In this document: positions 13,559 to 33,930 of the stretch, in pieces
Layout of the letters: each line of letters starts with the position of its first letter
How positions within the stretch are numbered: position 1 is the stretch's first letter
From: Alphaproteobacteria bacterium
Lineage (GTDB): Bacteria > Pseudomonadota > Alphaproteobacteria > Caulobacterales > Aquidulcibacteraceae
Reading direction: 5' to 3'
Length of the DNA stretch: 34,680 nt
Assembly: GCA_018971945.1 (NCBI GenBank)
Contig: JAGWZH010000022.1
Coordinates: 1 to 34,680, forward strand
Program-made: the position numbers and the translations under genes
The notes under the pieces: model-generated
What the model was told of the DNA's origin: nothing
Database searches by the model: none
The model's input: the letters and a program-made list of their open reading frames with translations, nothing else

Positions 13559-13765
13559 GGGCCTTGCCCTTTCCTGTCAAAAATGGCGCCGCGGCCGCGC
13601 CTTTCCGCGATAGAGGCGATCCGACATCACGCGCGCCGCCGCACGCGCCAGAGGGGCCCGGACCCGAGATGATGCGCGACATGTAGGATGCCTGCGGGTC
13701 TCCGCTAGCCCTTTTCCGCATCCAGCGGGCGCCGCAGCTGCAATCCTTTACTTCGGACGCTCCTA

Positions 13766-26620: not shown

Positions 26621-26797
26621 TCACGGCGTCCCATGCCCCCCCTTTTTGGCGCGGCAACGGTCGGAGCAGACTTTCACCTTGTCCCATTCGCGCTTCCATT
26701 TCTTGCGCCAGAAAAAGGGGCGTCCGCACGTTTGGCAGATTTTGTGCGGCAGATTGGCCTTGTCTGGCTTCAAGCCGTTGGCGTTTTTTCGTGCCAT
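26621..26797 (-). CDS. DUF2256 zinc-finger-like protein linked to cryptochrome
   Basis: A 58-residue protein. It begins MARKNANGLKPDKANLPHK, then ICQTCGRPFFWRKKW, KREWDKVKVCSDRC and a basic tail ending GTP. The CxxC (residues 21 and 24) and a second cysteine pair (Cys44, Cys48) form a likely zinc ribbon, and the Trp and Lys/Arg-rich part fits nucleic-acid contact. This is the DUF2256 family, often found beside photolyase or cryptochrome genes, with unknown function. Its ATG overlaps the cryptochrome stop codon (TGATG), so translation is coupled and it is the last gene of a three-gene operon. Confidence 0.9.
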   Translation of the reverse strand: MARKNANGLKPDKANLPHKICQTCGRPFFWRKKWKREWDKVKVCSDRCRAKKGGHGTP

Positions 26798-28338
26798 CAG
26801 AAATCAAACTCTGTTTGGGCGGGCTTCGCCTTTGGTTTGGGTCGGGCAGGGCGCTCAATCGAAGGAAGGCCTGATTTACGGCTGCCATGCCTTCGCTGGA
26901 TGTCGCGCGCCTTTTCAAAGAAGGCCTCCCCTGCCCGGACAGCGTAAACAGATTGCCGGGCCTGGCGTGCGGCTGTCTCATGGTCCACAAGCCTAAGGGC
27001 ATAGGTCTCGCCCAGCACAATCCCTTTGGCCGCAAGCAGGGCGGGCGGCGCAGTCCAAGGCTCGTGAACAAACTCGTCCGGCAAAGGACCGATTTCGGGG
27101 ACCCAGCGCCGAATGAAGGCGCCTTCAGGGTCCTGGTCCCGCGATTGTTTTATCGGATTATAGATTCGGGCGATGTTCACCCCAGTAACGCCAGACTGCA
27201 TCTGGACCTGTGGGAAATGTACGCCAGGTTCGAAATCGGTGAAAAGACGCGCCAAGGCCTGGCCTGGCCGCCGCCAATCCTGCCAGAGATGATAGCTTGA
27301 GAAGGCCATGACCATCGACCGCATCCGGAAATTTAACCACCCCGTGGCGCGAAGACTGCGCAGACAAGCGTCGACGAAGGGAAAGCCTGTTCGGCCTTGA
27401 GCCCAGGCTGTCACGATCGCTTCGTGATCCGACCCGACCCGGCGCAGACCCTCATAAGCAGGGTGCAGCGCCAGCTTCTCCATTTCGGGCTCATCCTCGA
27501 GTTTTTGCATAAAATGGCAGCGCCAATGGAGGCGGGAGGCAAAGGACGCGATGGACTCCGCGAAGTCCTGATCGCGGACGGCTTGCCAACGCGCCTTGGC
27601 GCGGAGTGTCGCCTGATAAGTCTCCCGCATCGACAAACATCCCATGGCGAGGTGCGCAGAGATCCGCGAGCAGGCTGCTGCTCCTGCGACGGGAGAGGCC
27701 ATCGCCCTCCGGTAAAATCGTCCACGGTTTGTCAAAAAAGACCGGAGCAGGAGAACTGCCTCTCTGCGTCCGCCAGTCTGACGCTCTGGACAGAGATCCT
27801 CTGGCATCCCCAAAGAGCCTCCTTCGGGAATCAGATCGCTGACCGCGTCGACTGCGCGGATCCGCACTGGGGCAAGATGCGTCTTTGACCGCATCATGGC
27901 TTCCCAGCGTCCCGCCCAGCCTTGTCGGTCAAAGCGCGCACGCCACACGCCGTTCTGGCGATATTCCTTGCACGGTATATTCGCCCTGCGCGCCCATCTG
28001 CGGACGGCCTTGTCGCGTTCGAAAGTCCAAAGCAGTCCGGTCTCCTCGTGGGCGTGGATCGCCCGCAGGTCGTAGGCGGCGTGCAGGTCGCATAAGACCT
28101 GGACCGCCTCGCCGACCCGCACAATAAGCCGAGCGCCACGCTGCGCGAGCGCTTCGTCGAGTTCTCCAAGGCATTCAGACAGGAACGCGAAATGTCTGCG
28201 CGCCATCTCGGGCTGACGCCACAAGTCAGGTTCCAGGATATAGAGCGGCAGGACAGGCTCGCCGGTCGCTACAGCGGCGGCAAGGGGCGCGTGATCATGG
28301 ACCCTTAGATCGCGCTTGAACCAAACGAGCTGGGTCAC
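26797..28338 (-). CDS. Cryptochrome/photolyase family protein
   Basis: A 513-residue flavoprotein. The N-terminal photolyase alpha/beta domain (about 1-130) starts LVWFKRDLRVHDHAPL, and the helical FAD domain spans about 250-460. Within it, GFPFVDACLRSLRATGWLNFRMRSM, then YHLWQDWRRPGQALARLFTDFEPGVHFPQVQMQSG, then RIYNPIKQSRDQDPEGAFIRRWVPEIG follow the FAD-binding order. It may be a photolyase repairing pyrimidine dimers with blue light, or a cryptochrome sensor. The subgroup with WLNFRMRSM..SSYHLWQDWR often travels with DUF2256. The start is GTG 28338, which overlaps the upstream gene's stop (GTGA). The C-terminus (RPKPKAKPAQTEFDF) is basic and disordered. Middle gene of a three-gene operon. 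Confidence 0.92.
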   Translation of the reverse strand: MTQLVWFKRDLRVHDHAPLAAAVATGEPVLPLYILEPDLWRQPEMARRHFAFLSECLGELDEALAQRGARLIVRVGEAVQVLCDLHAAYDLRAIHAHEETGLLWTFERDKAVRRWARRANIPCKEYRQNGVWRARFDRQGWAGRWEAMMRSKTHLAPVRIRAVDAVSDLIPEGGSLGMPEDLCPERQTGGRREAVLLLRSFLTNRGRFYRRAMASPVAGAAACSRISAHLAMGCLSMRETYQATLRAKARWQAVRDQDFAESIASFASRLHWRCHFMQKLEDEPEMEKLALHPAYEGLRRVGSDHEAIVTAWAQGRTGFPFVDACLRSLRATGWLNFRMRSMVMAFSSYHLWQDWRRPGQALARLFTDFEPGVHFPQVQMQSGVTGVNIARIYNPIKQSRDQDPEGAFIRRWVPEIGPLPDEFVHEPWTAPPALLAAKGIVLGETYALRLVDHETAARQARQSVYAVRAGEAFFEKARDIQRRHGSRKSGLPSIERPARPKPKAKPAQTEFDF

Positions 28339-29555
28339 GGGACGCCCGCGAGAAGCTGCGGTATCTTTTCCTTGAGCTTGAAAAAGCCCGCCCGGGCATG
28401 AGGCCAGACCCGACGATCAAAGGGGCGCTGGAGGCGGACAAGCCTTATTCCCTCGGCGGCGAGGTCGGGGCCGAGACGGTCAAGAGCCCAAGCCGTCAGA
28501 CCCACTGGTGCGTAGGAAGTGACAAGCTCTTTAGCCCCGCTCTTTTTCGCCCAGGCCGCCACCTCCGCGAGCCTAAGACTTTCTCCCGGTGCGCTGAAAT
28601 GGTCGATCGCGCGCCCAAGACCGTCCGTTAAGGCCCCGCAGAGAAACGCCGCGGAGGGGGTTTCGGGAGCGGCGGCCTCAGGCGCGTTCAGGGCGGCGCA
28701 GGCTGTCACTTCGGCCTTCAGGACCCATGTCTCGGCACAGAGATCTTCCGCGGTGATAAGAAGAGCCGTCTTGCGCTCTCGAACGTAATCCCCTTCCCCA
28801 AGGGCCTGCGGCATGGGCGGTGGATCGTCTTCAGTCAGAGGCTTAGCGCCTTCGTCGAGCGCGCCGCTTGGGTCAAACCGGCCCAAAGTGTTGTCCCTTA
28901 TATTGGCGGCGCGGGCGAGGTAGTGCTTGCCGGTCGTGTGCAAGCCCGCGACCCATCGCCAGGACAAAGTGTTGGAGGCGGGGTCGGCGTCCAACAGGTA
29001 TTTGTAGAAAAAATCTGCTCCAAGCTGCCACGGCAGGCGCAAGGTGAAAATCCAGATCGACGCGAACCACATGCGAGCATGATTATGCAGCCACCCCAGG
29101 CTGCGCAGCTCTTCCACCCAAGCGTCAAAACAAGCCACGCCCGTGCGCCCATCCATTGCCGCCTTGAGACGCTGGTCCCCAGCCCAGGTCTTGGCTAAAG
29201 CCCTGCGGTCGGCGTCGAAACGGCGCAGAAGGCCCGGGCGCATCTCAAGCCACCCCTTCCAGTAACTCCGCCAATAGACCTCCTGAATGAATTTTTCCGC
29301 AGATGCGAAGCTATGGCGTTTGAGGACTGCCGCGATCACTTCCTCCTCTGTCACAAGCCTCCGCCTGATCCAGGGCGACAGAGCCGACACATTGGAGCGG
29401 TCGTCTGGACCGCGGTCGATGTTGCGGTCGCGCGTATAGGTCCGCCCAGCCCATGGCAAGAAGGCGTCAAGGCGGGCCAAGCCCGCTGCGCGGGTTGGGG
29501 TCCAGGTTACCGGGTTGGTCAGGGGCTCGGGGGCGTCAAACAAGGTCATCGGCAT
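28335..29555 (-). CDS. Photolyase-like FAD-binding protein with reversed domain order
   Basis: A 406-residue protein. Its first part, about residues 20-250, is a photolyase FAD domain: FIQEVYWRSYWKGWLEMRPGLL, then ACFDAWVEELRSLGWLHNHARMWFASIW, LPWQLGADFFYKYLLDADPASNTLSWRWVAG and ANIRDNTLGRFDPSG. The antenna-type alpha/beta domain usually in front is missing there. Instead residues 266-406 look like an alternating strand-helix domain (TALLITAEDLC, ELVTSYAPVG, IRLVRLQRPFDRRVWPHA), so the order seems reversed. It is a known type, annotated as FAD-binding domain protein, whose activity I do not know. The start is ATG 29555, with ATG 29549 equally possible. Its stop overlaps the next gene's start by four bases, so it heads the operon. 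Confidence 0.85.
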   Translation of the reverse strand: MPMTLFDAPEPLTNPVTWTPTRAAGLARLDAFLPWAGRTYTRDRNIDRGPDDRSNVSALSPWIRRRLVTEEEVIAAVLKRHSFASAEKFIQEVYWRSYWKGWLEMRPGLLRRFDADRRALAKTWAGDQRLKAAMDGRTGVACFDAWVEELRSLGWLHNHARMWFASIWIFTLRLPWQLGADFFYKYLLDADPASNTLSWRWVAGLHTTGKHYLARAANIRDNTLGRFDPSGALDEGAKPLTEDDPPPMPQALGEGDYVRERKTALLITAEDLCAETWVLKAEVTACAALNAPEAAAPETPSAAFLCGALTDGLGRAIDHFSAPGESLRLAEVAAWAKKSGAKELVTSYAPVGLTAWALDRLGPDLAAEGIRLVRLQRPFDRRVWPHARAGFFKLKEKIPQLLAGVP

Positions 29556-29637
29556 TCATACGCGTCCGCTGCGCAGATGGGTTAGGGCGCCCAGAACGGT
29601 AAAGCCAGCACCGCGCGCCTAGGACTGCACGTCATGA

Positions 29638-30371: not shown

Positions 30372-30945
30372 GGGAAGGTCTGATCAAGCGGCAGAAACCG
30401 CTTTTTCTATGGACTATTGGCGTTTTCGGCGCGTAAGGCGTGATTTATTGTCCGCCTTGTGATCGTTTAGCTGTGCTGTTGCGCTTTTGGGGCGCACGTC
30501 TCCTGTGGATCAGGCCGCAGCAAGACGGCGGCGGGAGACGAAAAGATTGGCGAGCCCACAGGCGACGAACATTCGGTTCGTGTTTTTCGCCAGTCCGCGA
30601 TAACGGACCTTGGCGAAGCCAAAGACGCGCTTGATGATCAAAAAAGGGTGCTCGCCCCTGGCGCGGACCTTCGACTTCGTGCGGTTTTTGGCGCGCTCGT
30701 TCTCATTGACCACGCCCTCGTGGCGATAGCGCCGGTGGGTGTGATCCTGAGCCCTGGGCGCTTTTGCTTTGATGACGGCCTTCTGGCCGCGATAGGCCTG
30801 ATCGCCCCACAACCTGGCTTCCCTGCCATGGAGCAGATCCCCCAGAACGGTGCTGTCGGCGACATTTGCGGGCATGGTGCGCAGGGTGCGCATTCCGATC
30901 ACTTCGGCCGCCAATTCCAGTTTGGACTTCGGCCAAGATGAGCAG
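30372..30945 (-). mobile_element. Truncated IS5-group insertion sequence
   Basis: GGGAAGGTCTGATCAAG (30372-30388) matches 14 of 17 bases of the IS5-type end at 34537, and both face outward from a transposase. Here the transposase tail (stop at 30510) points to this end. The transposase is cut at its N-terminal side, at about 30915-30945. A 12-bp direct repeat TTCGGCTGGGCG (30949-30960 and 30969-30980) lies beyond the broken end. The right limit is approximate. Confidence 0.7.
30510..30944 (-). pseudogene. IS5 family transposase, C-terminal part only
   Basis: About 134 residues matching the DDE transposase C-terminal half: LAAEVIGMRTL, then ANVADSTVLGDLLHG, WGDQAYRG (with the second Asp) and VVNENERAKNRTKSKVRARGEHPFLIIKRVFGF, ending AKVRYRGLAKNTNRMFVACGLANLFVSRRRL. 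The catalytic Glu should be in the ENERAKNRTKSKVRARGEHPF stretch. The first two thirds, with the first Asp, are missing and no start codon of the original gene remains. The frame stays open a little upstream (to about 30944) but the residues no longer fit the family. Inactive, unless moved by a complete relative such as the one at the right edge. Confidence 0.85.
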
Positions 30946-31096
30946 CCTTTCGGCTGGGCGATGATTGGTTCGGCTGGGCGCCGCGGTCAAAGGGTTGGCG
31001 TTTGAGCACAGACGCAGCGGCCGGCGCGCGCGTGCTGACCGTGAGAGTCAAAGCGCGTGCGGGCCGGGCGCGGTGGGGTTGACGGTGAGCTTCGGC

Positions 31097-31432
31097 TCAG
31101 GCTGCATCTTCCCCGGTCTTGTCGCGAATGCTGCGCTCGCCAAGTTTGACCCGATGGGCGGCGTGAATGATCCGATCTAGGATGGCGTCCGCACAAGTCG
31201 GATCGCCGATCATTTCGTGCCAGGCCTCGGTCGGGCGCTGGCTGGTGATGATCAGCGCATGGCGGCCTTGGCGTTCTTCAACGAGCTCCATCATTTCGCG
31301 GCGCTGGGCGGCGTCGAGCGCGGTCATGCCGCTCGTCGGGAATTCGTTCCCCCGGAACGAATTCTCGTCCTCCTCGCCGTCAATAATCAGGACCTTCACG
31401 CTGCACAGCTTGCGCATCAAGGCGGGATAGCG
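31097..31432 (-). pseudogene. IS21 helper ATPase IstB, C-terminal fragment
   Basis: About 107 residues of IstB, the ATP-binding partner of the IS21 transposase. Walker B KVLIIDG is near the start. Then come TALDAAQRREMMELVEERQGRHALIITSQRPTEAWHEMIGDPTCADAILDRIIHAAHRVKL and SIRDKTG, a full match to the C-terminal half. The Walker A half is gone. Between Walker B and TALDAAQRR about 15 residues not found in the family are inserted (EDENSFRGNEFPTS), coded by a palindrome at 31340-31364. The left break is at about 31430, where the family match stops, next to a decapitated HTH gene on the other strand. No IstA and no IS21 ends are found. Confidence 0.85.
31332..31369. repeat. Palindrome flanked by 6-bp direct repeats within istB
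   Basis: GAATTCGTTCC (31340-31350) and GGAACGAATTC (31354-31364) are perfect inverted arms around CCC. CTCGTC occurs on both sides (31332-31337 and 31364-31369). The block is extra relative to IstB homologues. It resembles a tiny insertion with a target duplication, but the arithmetic does not restore frame when removed. Confidence 0.6.
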
Positions 31433-32187: not shown

Positions 32188-32208
32188 ATGATTATTTCCC
32201 TCAGCCTT

Positions 32209-32224
32209 GTATCATGGACGATAC
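32209..32224. promoter_or_regulatory. hipBA operator-like site O4
   Basis: GTATCAT-GG-ACGATAC, one arm mismatch from the consensus. It lies between the transcription start and the hipB start codon, with its centre 40 bases from O3. Confidence 0.65.
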
Positions 32225-32227
32225 GTT

Positions 32228-32476
32228 ATGGACTTGGAATTGCTTGGCCGAGCAATAAAACGGCAACGAGACGCCCTCGGCCTTACGCAGGAGCAGCTCG
32301 CAGCGAAGGCCATGGTGAGCAGACCAACGATCGCCCGTTTGGAAACAGGGCGAGCCACAGACCTTGGGTATCGCGCTGTTCTCCGCATCCTTAACGCGCT
32401 GAACCTCGACCTTCGCGTCTCGACCCTCAACCGAGGACGCCCCACGCTTGAAGACCTCGCCGAGGAGACGCCATGA
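32228..32476 (+). CDS. hipB: HipB-type antitoxin, Xre/Cro HTH
   Basis: An 82-residue HTH_3 protein. RAIKRQRDALGLTQEQLAAKAMVSRPTIARLETGRATDLGYRAVLRILNALNLDLRV (about 8-64) is the helix-turn-helix fold, with the TQEQLA and SRPTIARLE recognition helices. In hipBA systems, HipB binds its own operators and wraps the HipA kinase, keeping it inactive. ATG 32228 is preferred; an upstream TTG (32207) lies in O4. No Shine-Dalgarno is visible, so translation may start on a weakly structured leader. The last codon overlaps the hipA start (ATGA), giving tight coupling. The four palindromes upstream suit a self-repressor. Confidence 0.92.
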   Translation: MDLELLGRAIKRQRDALGLTQEQLAAKAMVSRPTIARLETGRATDLGYRAVLRILNALNLDLRVSTLNRGRPTLEDLAEETP

Positions 32477-33930
32477 TCCGCATCTGGACGGATGGCGAAA
32501 TTTCGGGCGCGCTGGACAGGTTGGGGAGGGTCGGAACGTCATTCGCGTACGCACCGGAAGCCGCTGCACAACGGGCAGTTTCCATCACCATGCCACACCG
32601 CTTGCCGTCCTACGATTGGCCCCACGGACTGCTTCCCATTTTCGAAATGAACGTGCCGGAAGGGGCGCTGCGTGAGCGGCTGATCCGGTCTTTCTCGAAG
32701 GCCACAGGCTCGTTCGACGACTTCGATCTCTTGTCGATCGTGGGCCGCACCCAGCTTGGCCGAATTCGCTATTCCGCAATGGACGCCGTCCTCGATGAAG
32801 CGACGCCGTTTCAGTCCGTCGATGAGATCCTGCGTGCGCGCCGCGACGGGGGTCTTTTCGATCATCTCCTCGATCGTTTTGCGCGCTATTCCGGCCTCAG
32901 TGGCGTGCAACCAAAGGTGCTGATCCGCGACGAGAAGAAGTTTTCCGCTGGCAAGGCACGCCGATCATCGAGCATTCGGGCGGCGACCCATATCGTCAAA
33001 ATGTGGGATCGGGACGAATATCCGGAGCTCGCGGCCAACGAGTTCTTTTGCCTCCTCGCCGCTCGGAAGGCGGGTCTCGACGTCCCGGTTTTCACCTTGT
33101 CAGACGCGGGCGATGCGCTCGTCATCGAGCGGTTCGATATCGGTGATCGGGGATATCTCGGCCTCGAGGACTTTTGCGTGCTGAATGGCCTTGGCGCAGC
33201 TCAGAAATACGCTGGGAGCTACGAGTCGCGGCTGTTCAGGCGCACCCGCGACTTCGTGGACCCCGCCGATCAGCCGCAGGCCCTGCAAGCTCTCTACCAG
33301 CTGTTCGTTCTCAACTGCGCCCTTCGCAATGGCGATGCGCACCTTAAGAACTTCGCTTTGATCTATGATCGGGTGGACGGACCTCTGCGTCTCGCGCCGG
33401 TCTACGACCTGGTCACCACCAAGGCCTATCTGCCGAACGACGCGATGGCGTTGACTCTCGATGGATCGACACGGTGGCCTGATGCGAAGCGCCTTACCCA
33501 GCTTGGACAACTCCGCGCCGGCCTTTCTCCATCCTCCATCGGACTGATCTTCGAGGAAACCGCAGACGCCATGGCCGACGTTTGGAAAGAGGCTGCACGA
33601 TACTTCGTGGGCTGCTCCGAACCCGGCGTTGGCGAGCGGATGAAGTCCGCGTGGGAAGAAGGCATCGCCGAAGCCTTAGGGCGTGGCCGCGCGCTGACCA
33701 AAAAGGCGAGCCCGTCGCCGCAAGAGCCCAAGCCGTTGGCTAAATCTCAGGCGGCCCTGCTGGAGCTCCTGCGCACCGAGGGAGGCGCATTGCTGGGATC
33801 GGTCTCGTCAATCGCGGCCAAGCTCTCACTGCCGCCGAGCACGCTCAGCGGGGCGCTGAAGGCTCTCCAAGACCGGGGCCTAATCAGTCGCGAAGGCCGC
33901 AGCATCCGCCTTGCCGATCGCGACGTTTAA
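32473..33930 (+). CDS. hipA: HipA family toxin kinase with C-terminal winged-helix extension
   Basis: A 485-residue HipA-like Ser/Thr kinase. SGVQPKV (143-149) is the P-loop-type segment and Lys176 in HIVK is the likely ATP lysine. Asp288 in NGDAHLKNFAL (286-296) is the catalytic base, with Asn293 and Asp312 (YDLVTT) for Mg2+. E. coli HipA phosphorylates glutamyl-tRNA synthetase, halting translation and causing persistence; the target here may differ. The N-terminal subdomain (1-110) is the usual HipA couple domain. After the kinase, residues about 424-485 (KSQAALLELLRTEGG, LSLPPSTLSGALKALQDRGLISREGRSIRLAD) read as a winged HTH, which ordinary HipA (about 440 residues) lacks. It is the second gene of the operon, in a mobile region. 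Confidence 0.93.
   Translation: MIRIWTDGEISGALDRLGRVGTSFAYAPEAAAQRAVSITMPHRLPSYDWPHGLLPIFEMNVPEGALRERLIRSFSKATGSFDDFDLLSIVGRTQLGRIRYSAMDAVLDEATPFQSVDEILRARRDGGLFDHLLDRFARYSGLSGVQPKVLIRDEKKFSAGKARRSSSIRAATHIVKMWDRDEYPELAANEFFCLLAARKAGLDVPVFTLSDAGDALVIERFDIGDRGYLGLEDFCVLNGLGAAQKYAGSYESRLFRRTRDFVDPADQPQALQALYQLFVLNCALRNGDAHLKNFALIYDRVDGPLRLAPVYDLVTTKAYLPNDAMALTLDGSTRWPDAKRLTQLGQLRAGLSPSSIGLIFEETADAMADVWKEAARYFVGCSEPGVGERMKSAWEEGIAEALGRGRALTKKASPSPQEPKPLAKSQAALLELLRTEGGALLGSVSSIAAKLSLPPSTLSGALKALQDRGLISREGRSIRLADRDV

Follow-up and report, generated by a model that had tools for sequence, protein, structure and literature searches.

Why would two photolyase homologues of different architecture be translated together with a protein of 58 amino acids? 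The question is raised by three minus-strand genes on contig JAGWZH010000022.1 of an alphaproteobacterium of the family Aquidulcibacteraceae (assembly GCA_018971945.1), of which positions 1 to 34,680, here called the window, were analysed as a whole. In order of transcription, the genes encode a photolyase with its flavin adenine dinucleotide (FAD) domain first, which fits the described NewPHL class, a protein of the photolyase/cryptochrome family that we call CryX, and a DUF2256 protein. We regard it as probable that they form a stress-induced photorepair operon, made of a cyclobutane pyrimidine dimer (CPD) photolyase for single-stranded DNA, a coupled FAD protein with a chemistry other than CPD repair, and a zinc-finger accessory protein. 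The layout is seen directly: as an earlier note on this DNA had described, the three open reading frames overlap by 4 bases and by 1 base, the latter at 26797 (TGATG). An Rfam scan gave no match inside the operon, whose features are the following.

28335..29555, minus strand: NewPHL/SPL-class photolyase gene, 406 amino acids (open reading frame call, Pfam, predicted structure, residue alignment)
28851..29516, minus strand: FAD (catalytic) domain of NewPHL, residues 14–235 (fold match, residue alignment)
28350..28769, minus strand: C-terminal alpha/beta domain of NewPHL, residues 263–402 (model; strand/helix order like the photolyase N-terminal domain)
28335..28338, minus strand: GTGA stop/start overlap of NewPHL and CryX, 4 bases, read directly
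26797..28338, minus strand: CryX, photolyase/cryptochrome-family gene, 513 amino acids, GTG start (open reading frame call, Pfam, structure, residues)
26621..26797, minus strand: DUF2256 gene, 58 amino acids, C21-x2-C24-x19-C44-x3-C48 (open reading frame call, Pfam)
29557..29584, minus strand: putative promoter of the ECF11 (sigma-E/ChrR) type, TAACCC (29584–29579), 16 nucleotides, CGTATG (29562–29557)

The two photolyase-family proteins

The earlier note had placed an FAD domain at the N-terminus of the 406-residue protein and a likely alpha/beta domain at its C-terminus; Pfam agrees for the FAD domain and the structure model for both. Pfam finds FAD_binding_7 at residues 89–231 (E 4.9e-24) and no DNA_photolyase domain in this protein. 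The structure predicted from a 16-sequence alignment (A1) has a mean predicted local distance difference test score (pLDDT) of 89.6 and a predicted template modelling score of 0.89; it shows a helical domain up to about residue 230 followed by an alpha/beta domain (strands 263–268, 283–289, 324–327, 343–347 and 371–375), which supports the reversed domain order. Fold-search matches of the whole model span the FAD domain only, and this part matches 2j4d_B with Z 17.7 (212 residues aligned, root-mean-square deviation 2.6). In the model the C-terminal domain has the same strand/helix order as the antenna domain of photolyases, while sequence homology to that domain is not established: its profile gave no significant match to 14 class I sequences (hhalign E 0.016, probability 2.9%) or to the CryX profile, and residues 287–372 of the NewPHL profile scored 0.1 bits against the N-terminal domain of the Anacystis photolyase.

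For the residue comparison, NewPHL and CryX rows were aligned to Escherichia coli PhrB and 14 class I homologues, and PhrB numbering is used throughout. The NewPHL protein of the window keeps E92, W95, R96, N158, M162, N195, W199, W201 and W176, the counterparts of PhrB E274, W277, R278, N341, M345, N378, W382, W384 and W359, respectively. The equivalents of Glu274, Trp277, Arg278, Asn341, Met345, Asn378, Trp382 and Trp359 are present in all 108 NewPHL rows (106 distinct); a third Trp, at the W306 equivalent, occurs in 1/108, so that these proteins have a Trp dyad (W199 and W176 in the window) and no triad. Alignment A2 leaves out two rows with another active-site pattern (L057 and L058, 31–35% identity) and the partial L054, which is included in the residue counts.

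An FAD domain placed first is the mark of the NewPHL/SPL class, described, according to papers that cite the original work, as CPD photolyases for single-stranded DNA, so that the reversed architecture itself is already known. Among its published members, which include A8LJA9 and M7YZC8, are proteins of Dinoroseobacter shibae and Methylobacterium mesophilicum and Phr7 of Prochlorococcus; in the parts available to us, PMC9426592, which cites the same NewPHL work, gives Phr7 an N-terminal FAD domain, and PMC8948257 gives the D. shibae protein a mere Trp dyad. Gene 1 resembles these members by its FAD domain first and second domain C-terminal, its CPD residues and its Trp dyad, and differs from them by being coupled to CryX and DUF2256. 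It fits NewPHL in all testable features but C-terminal homology to the antenna domain, an assignment based on architecture and residues as described. A metagenome-assembled genome (MAG) of Methylobacterium (49%) is among the 80 NewPHL relatives discussed below.

CryX has the usual domain order, with DNA_photolyase (PF00875) at residues 4–131 and FAD_binding_7 (PF03441) at 266–464, and its model (pLDDT 90.9) is a complete photolyase fold that matches 6kii over 458 residues (Z 40.8, root-mean-square deviation 2.1). Its active site is another matter. In 54 CryX rows (52 distinct), Glu274 is replaced by Arg and Asn341 by Phe in 54/54, Met345 by Ala or Ser, Asn378 by His and Asp374 by Glu in 53/54 each, and Trp384 by Met in 52/54; position 382 holds Val, Ala, Leu, Ile, Met, Thr, Phe, Ser or Cys and in no row Trp. 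The residues of the window protein at altered positions are R269, F337, S341, H374, V378 and M380. Trp277 is the sole tested lesion-contact residue that is not exchanged. Of the Trp triad W382–W359–W306, only W359 stays (53/54, with one gap), Trp306 being absent from all rows. Residues that touch FAD are kept: Y222, S235 and D372 in 53/54, and S238 in 54/54. Instead of having decayed, the active site of CryX has thus been swapped for a different, conserved one. From these residues we infer that CryX would bind FAD, and it is most likely not a CPD photolyase because both the CPD-repair residues and the photoactivation Trp chain are exchanged. The His found in 53/54 rows occupies what we take to be the position of the flavin-facing Asn. 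Replacements of this Asn named in the available part of PMC12083526 are Asp, Cys or water, with His not among them.

In two-domain fold and FAD-contact residues CryX is like class I and class III CPD photolyases and plant cryptochromes, and it differs from all of these by E274R, N341F, M345A/S, N378H, W384M and the lack of a Trp triad. In the PDB, the top-scoring entries of class III, class I, DASH-type, plant cryptochrome, (6-4) and animal cryptochrome groups reach 201–224 bits with the CryX profile, and class II entries at most 42.5; in a phylum sample of 249 genomes, members score 372–783 bits and no other sequence exceeds 260. CryX was found in 24/249 of these genomes. None of the NCBIfam class models reaches its cut-off on CryX. 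Three known classes were compared with CryX and did not fit: DASH cryptochrome (TIGR02765 151.2 bits, under the curated cut-off of 317.05), bacterial iron–sulphur (FeS) (6-4) photolyase (PF04244 not among the Pfam matches at E <= 1), and class I CPD photolyase, of which Glu274, Asn341, Met345, Asn378, Trp382, Trp384 and the Trp triad are lacking. As a separate observation, plasmid P2 of Deinococcus gobiensis carries a CryX-like frame (47% identity over 95% of the query) lying partly under a gene annotated ung; that annotation looks wrong or reflects a fusion, and 2/3 CryX motifs are unmatched there by simple patterns.

Recurrence of the gene group and the company of DUF2256

A scan of named genomes with alignment A1 matched at least 595 stretches, of which 594 were confirmed and 80 loci kept. 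These loci were found by NewPHL alone, and neighbours were counted within the available flanks, up to 6 kb and short in 31/80. Within 6 kb of NewPHL there is a CryX gene in 18/80 loci, a DUF2256 gene in 11/80 and a PF04244-type photolyase in 12/80, on the same strand in 18/18, 11/11 and 8/12 cases, respectively. A class I photolyase is near NewPHL in 1/80, against which the 18/80 for CryX is a linkage beyond chance. The FeS-photolyase profile was built from 4 proteins, with one of four intended loci included; of its 12 matches four score only 361–394 bits, and a fifth, a cut-off fragment, 196.

NewPHL precedes CryX in eight loci (L113, L115, L124, L145, L157, L167, L172 and L178), six of which show a 4-base A/GTGA overlap like that of the window. 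In five others the order is CryX, DUF2256, NewPHL (L121, L128, L139, L144 and L182), in one it is CryX, NewPHL (L136), and in four of Rhodobacterales (L146, L158, L169 and L176) an FeS-type (6-4) photolyase is followed on the same strand by DUF2256, NewPHL and CryX, in that order. In the host family, two of whose genomes are also represented among the 80 loci (L115 and L145), NewPHL is present in 13/60 genomes and is directly followed by CryX on the same strand in 10/13; in the other three, CryX is adjacent and convergent in one (G434) and on another contig in two. Conservation of the triple across Alphaproteobacteria, raised in the earlier note, thus holds for the group, the pair recurring in the family as just described and all three genes lying within 6 kb in 9/80 named loci, but not for the exact order of the window, since these nine have other orders. 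No mention of a NewPHL–CryX–DUF2256 neighbourhood was found in the literature searched, which excluded the primary papers Emmerich 2020 and Xu 2021.

The 58-residue protein matches DUF2256 (PF10013) with 73.2 bits, for a cut-off of 25, and has four Cys. Its company was examined in a class sample (n = 190) and in the phylum sample, which partly share genomes and are not independent, and Fisher p-values from them ignore kinship; in the class sample, members were told from non-members by a gap in E-value, between 1.3e-72 and 7.4e-37 for NewPHL and between 3.6e-94 and 1.4e-66 for CryX. DUF2256 was found in 50 genomes of the class sample and PF04244, the family of prokaryotic (6-4) photolyases, in 55, with both in 47; in the phylum sample the figures are 68, 69 and 59. 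Both are present in 16/16 NewPHL genomes of the class sample and, with identical counts in the two samples, in 21/24 CryX genomes, the remaining 3 having neither. In the phylum sample, DUF2256 is within 5 kb of PF04244 in 33/68 genomes, near neither PF04244 nor CryX in 30/68, and within 5 kb of CryX in 10/21 genomes having both. The nearly one-to-one co-occurrence of DUF2256 and PF04244 photolyases suggests that DUF2256 serves above all the FeS (6-4) photolyase. The link between DUF2256 and cryptochromes mentioned in the earlier note is borne out for photolyase-family genes at large, but DUF2256 tracks PF04244 (47/50) more closely than CryX. The DUF2256 passages found in the literature draw no link to photolyases.

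A precedent for overlapping photolyase-family genes comes from Synechococcus sp. PCC 7335, where, according to the available part of PMC9649867, two such genes overlap by 11 nucleotides on one UV-induced messenger RNA (mRNA); the second gene there resembles PhrSph98, which is class II-related, and keeps the Glu, Asn and Met lesion residues, which CryX does not. An FAD domain placed before the photolyase domain is also described, in the part of PMC9426592 available to us, for phr4–phr5 and phr6 of Synechococcus/Cyanobium, which differ from NewPHL by Fe–S cysteines and, for phr4/phr5, by being split into two reading frames.

A putative stress promoter

Upstream of NewPHL lies a sequence resembling TGATCC-N16-CGTA, which the available passages give as the consensus of a sigma-E/ChrR (singlet-oxygen) factor, with a photolyase operon among its targets (PMC5507510), and whose elements are also found in Shewanella (PMC4336711). 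A site with up to 2 mismatches in TGATCC and an exact spacer and CGTA is present upstream of NewPHL in 10/13 host-family regions, and in none of them in antisense; about 0.4 would be expected at the rate of the window itself, which has 7 such sites on its two strands (34,680 bases). The ten site-bearing genomes are exactly those in which CryX directly follows NewPHL; 8/13 of the NewPHL genomes, and most of these ten, belong to one genus. Visual inspection of these upstream regions first revealed the pattern, which was then scored in a loose form; the published consensus was found later and the fixed test came last, so that the test was not fully blind. An ATG stands 6–7 nucleotides past the -10-like hexamer in all ten loci, which suggests a leaderless mRNA. 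In the window this ATG is the second one, at 29549, and because the relatives' ATG keeps this distance, translation of NewPHL possibly begins there, giving a protein of 404 amino acids. No SOS box (GTTC-N7-GTTC, either strand) was found in the window or in 19 upstream regions.

The genome of the window also carries a class I photolyase homologue, with an exact consensus site 126 nucleotides upstream of the match; on the same contig, another exact site overlaps the beginning of a gene that is ChrR-like (86.8 bits with TIGR02451, for a cut-off of 124.5). The ECF11 sigma-E/ChrR core regulon (photolyase, cfa, SDR, amine oxidase) is like our operon in having photolyase targets and, given the putative site upstream of NewPHL, possibly in promoter type; the literature passages found do not list NewPHL–CryX among the targets. 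Independently of this comparison, we observed that class I photolyase, DUF1365-like, cfa-type, SDR-like and ChrR-like genes are clustered on that contig (locus L234, contig C199), with exact TGATCC-N16-CGTA sites at 2458 (plus strand) and 9631 (minus strand), the DUF1365 and SDR labels being given by eye.

Elsewhere in the window, positions 30510–31420 (minus strand), upstream of the operon, carry parts of two insertion sequences: a fragment of a DDE transposase (PF01609) and a C-terminal piece that is IstB-like (PF01695). At 32207–33930 (plus strand), an antitoxin-like helix–turn–helix gene (PF01381) comes first and overlaps by 4 bases a HipA-type gene (HipA_C, Couple_hipA), which has an extra C-terminal winged-helix-like stretch with MarR/IclR matches at residues 425–474. 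The 5' end of a 16S ribosomal RNA gene lies at the contig edge (1–329, minus strand), and a terC RNA match at 13612–13669 (minus strand).

What the three genes may do together

The photorepair reading favoured here can be put as follows. Photo-oxidative stress would probably switch the operon on. NewPHL, using light and reduced FAD, would split cyclobutane pyrimidine dimers, in single-stranded DNA by analogy with its class. CryX, translated by coupling from the NewPHL mRNA, would act on another substrate or report light, and the DUF2256 protein, a small zinc finger travelling with photolyase-family genes, would be an accessory that probably binds nucleic acid or protein. Several observations weigh against this reading. 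The site in the window has two mismatches in the -35 element; such sites occur in 7/80 named loci only, two of them in family genomes already counted, and are absent from 5/6 CryX-first and 4/4 FeS-photolyase-first operons. There is no CryX within the available flank of 62/80 named NewPHL loci. In the class sample, 7/16 NewPHL genomes lack CryX; the other 9/16 have it, nearby in 5/9, and in two of these five (G184 and G035) the two genes are on opposite strands, to which the convergent pair of the host family is to be added. In that family DUF2256 follows the pair in the window only. Finally, the roles of the PhrB residues and their literature numbering are those we presume them to have.

Shared stress control alone could explain the grouping, the genes being co-expressed with no further joint function, and we give this nearly, though not quite, an even chance. 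The ECF11-type sites point that way, as do the PF04244 photolyases near NewPHL in 12/80 loci and the rows of four genes in 4/80, but mere clustering accounts poorly for tight 4-base NewPHL–CryX overlaps in lineages as unrelated as a Moraxellaceae MAG (L172), a Rhizobiales MAG (L157) and Asticcacaulis (L178). The same overlaps, in the window and in 6/8 NewPHL-then-CryX loci, together with the recurrence of the genes in several orders, would suit a complex of NewPHL and CryX in which CryX is antenna, electron donor or DNA-recognition subunit and DUF2256 a DNA-binding part; as NewPHL has a Trp dyad only (a dyad is also given in the accessible part of PMC8948257), an outside electron donor is conceivable. 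Nevertheless each protein is predicted to have its own FAD domain and its own alpha/beta domain, so that there is no missing part in either for the other to provide, and each occurs in genomes without the other (NewPHL in 7/16, CryX in 15/24 of the class sample). We therefore consider such a complex improbable, and no result supported the heterodimeric repair enzyme proposed in the earlier note.

CryX might also be an ordinary CPD or (6-4) photolyase that tolerates differing residues, the operon being a redundant stock of photolyases. Its fold is fully photolyase-like, several plasmid records name it deoxyribodipyrimidine photo-lyase, and Rhodobacter sphaeroides phrA is, by the title of a reference, a sigma-E-dependent photolyase of whichever class. 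This is unlikely in our opinion: its exchanged positions hold Arg, Phe and His invariantly and are not merely degenerate, and the genomes concerned are already provided for, with PF04244 in 21/24 CryX genomes of each sample and a class I homologue in the genome of the window. More speculatively, and with the chances still against it, CryX may be an unrecognised class of the superfamily, with an invariant Arg, Phe, His, Met site and no Trp triad, acting together with NewPHL, whether on a lesion outside the range of the described photolyases or by sensing light and then reducing or gating NewPHL.

The DUF2256 protein, small and common, gains a concrete context, being nearly confined to genomes with an FeS-type (6-4) photolyase (47/50 and 59/68). 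It is the partner CryX that would matter most: it is widespread and keeps its flavin contacts, with all tested lesion contacts but Trp277 exchanged, mostly for one residue, and, as it is repeatedly found coupled to a CPD photolyase, its function lends itself to tests by simple genetics.

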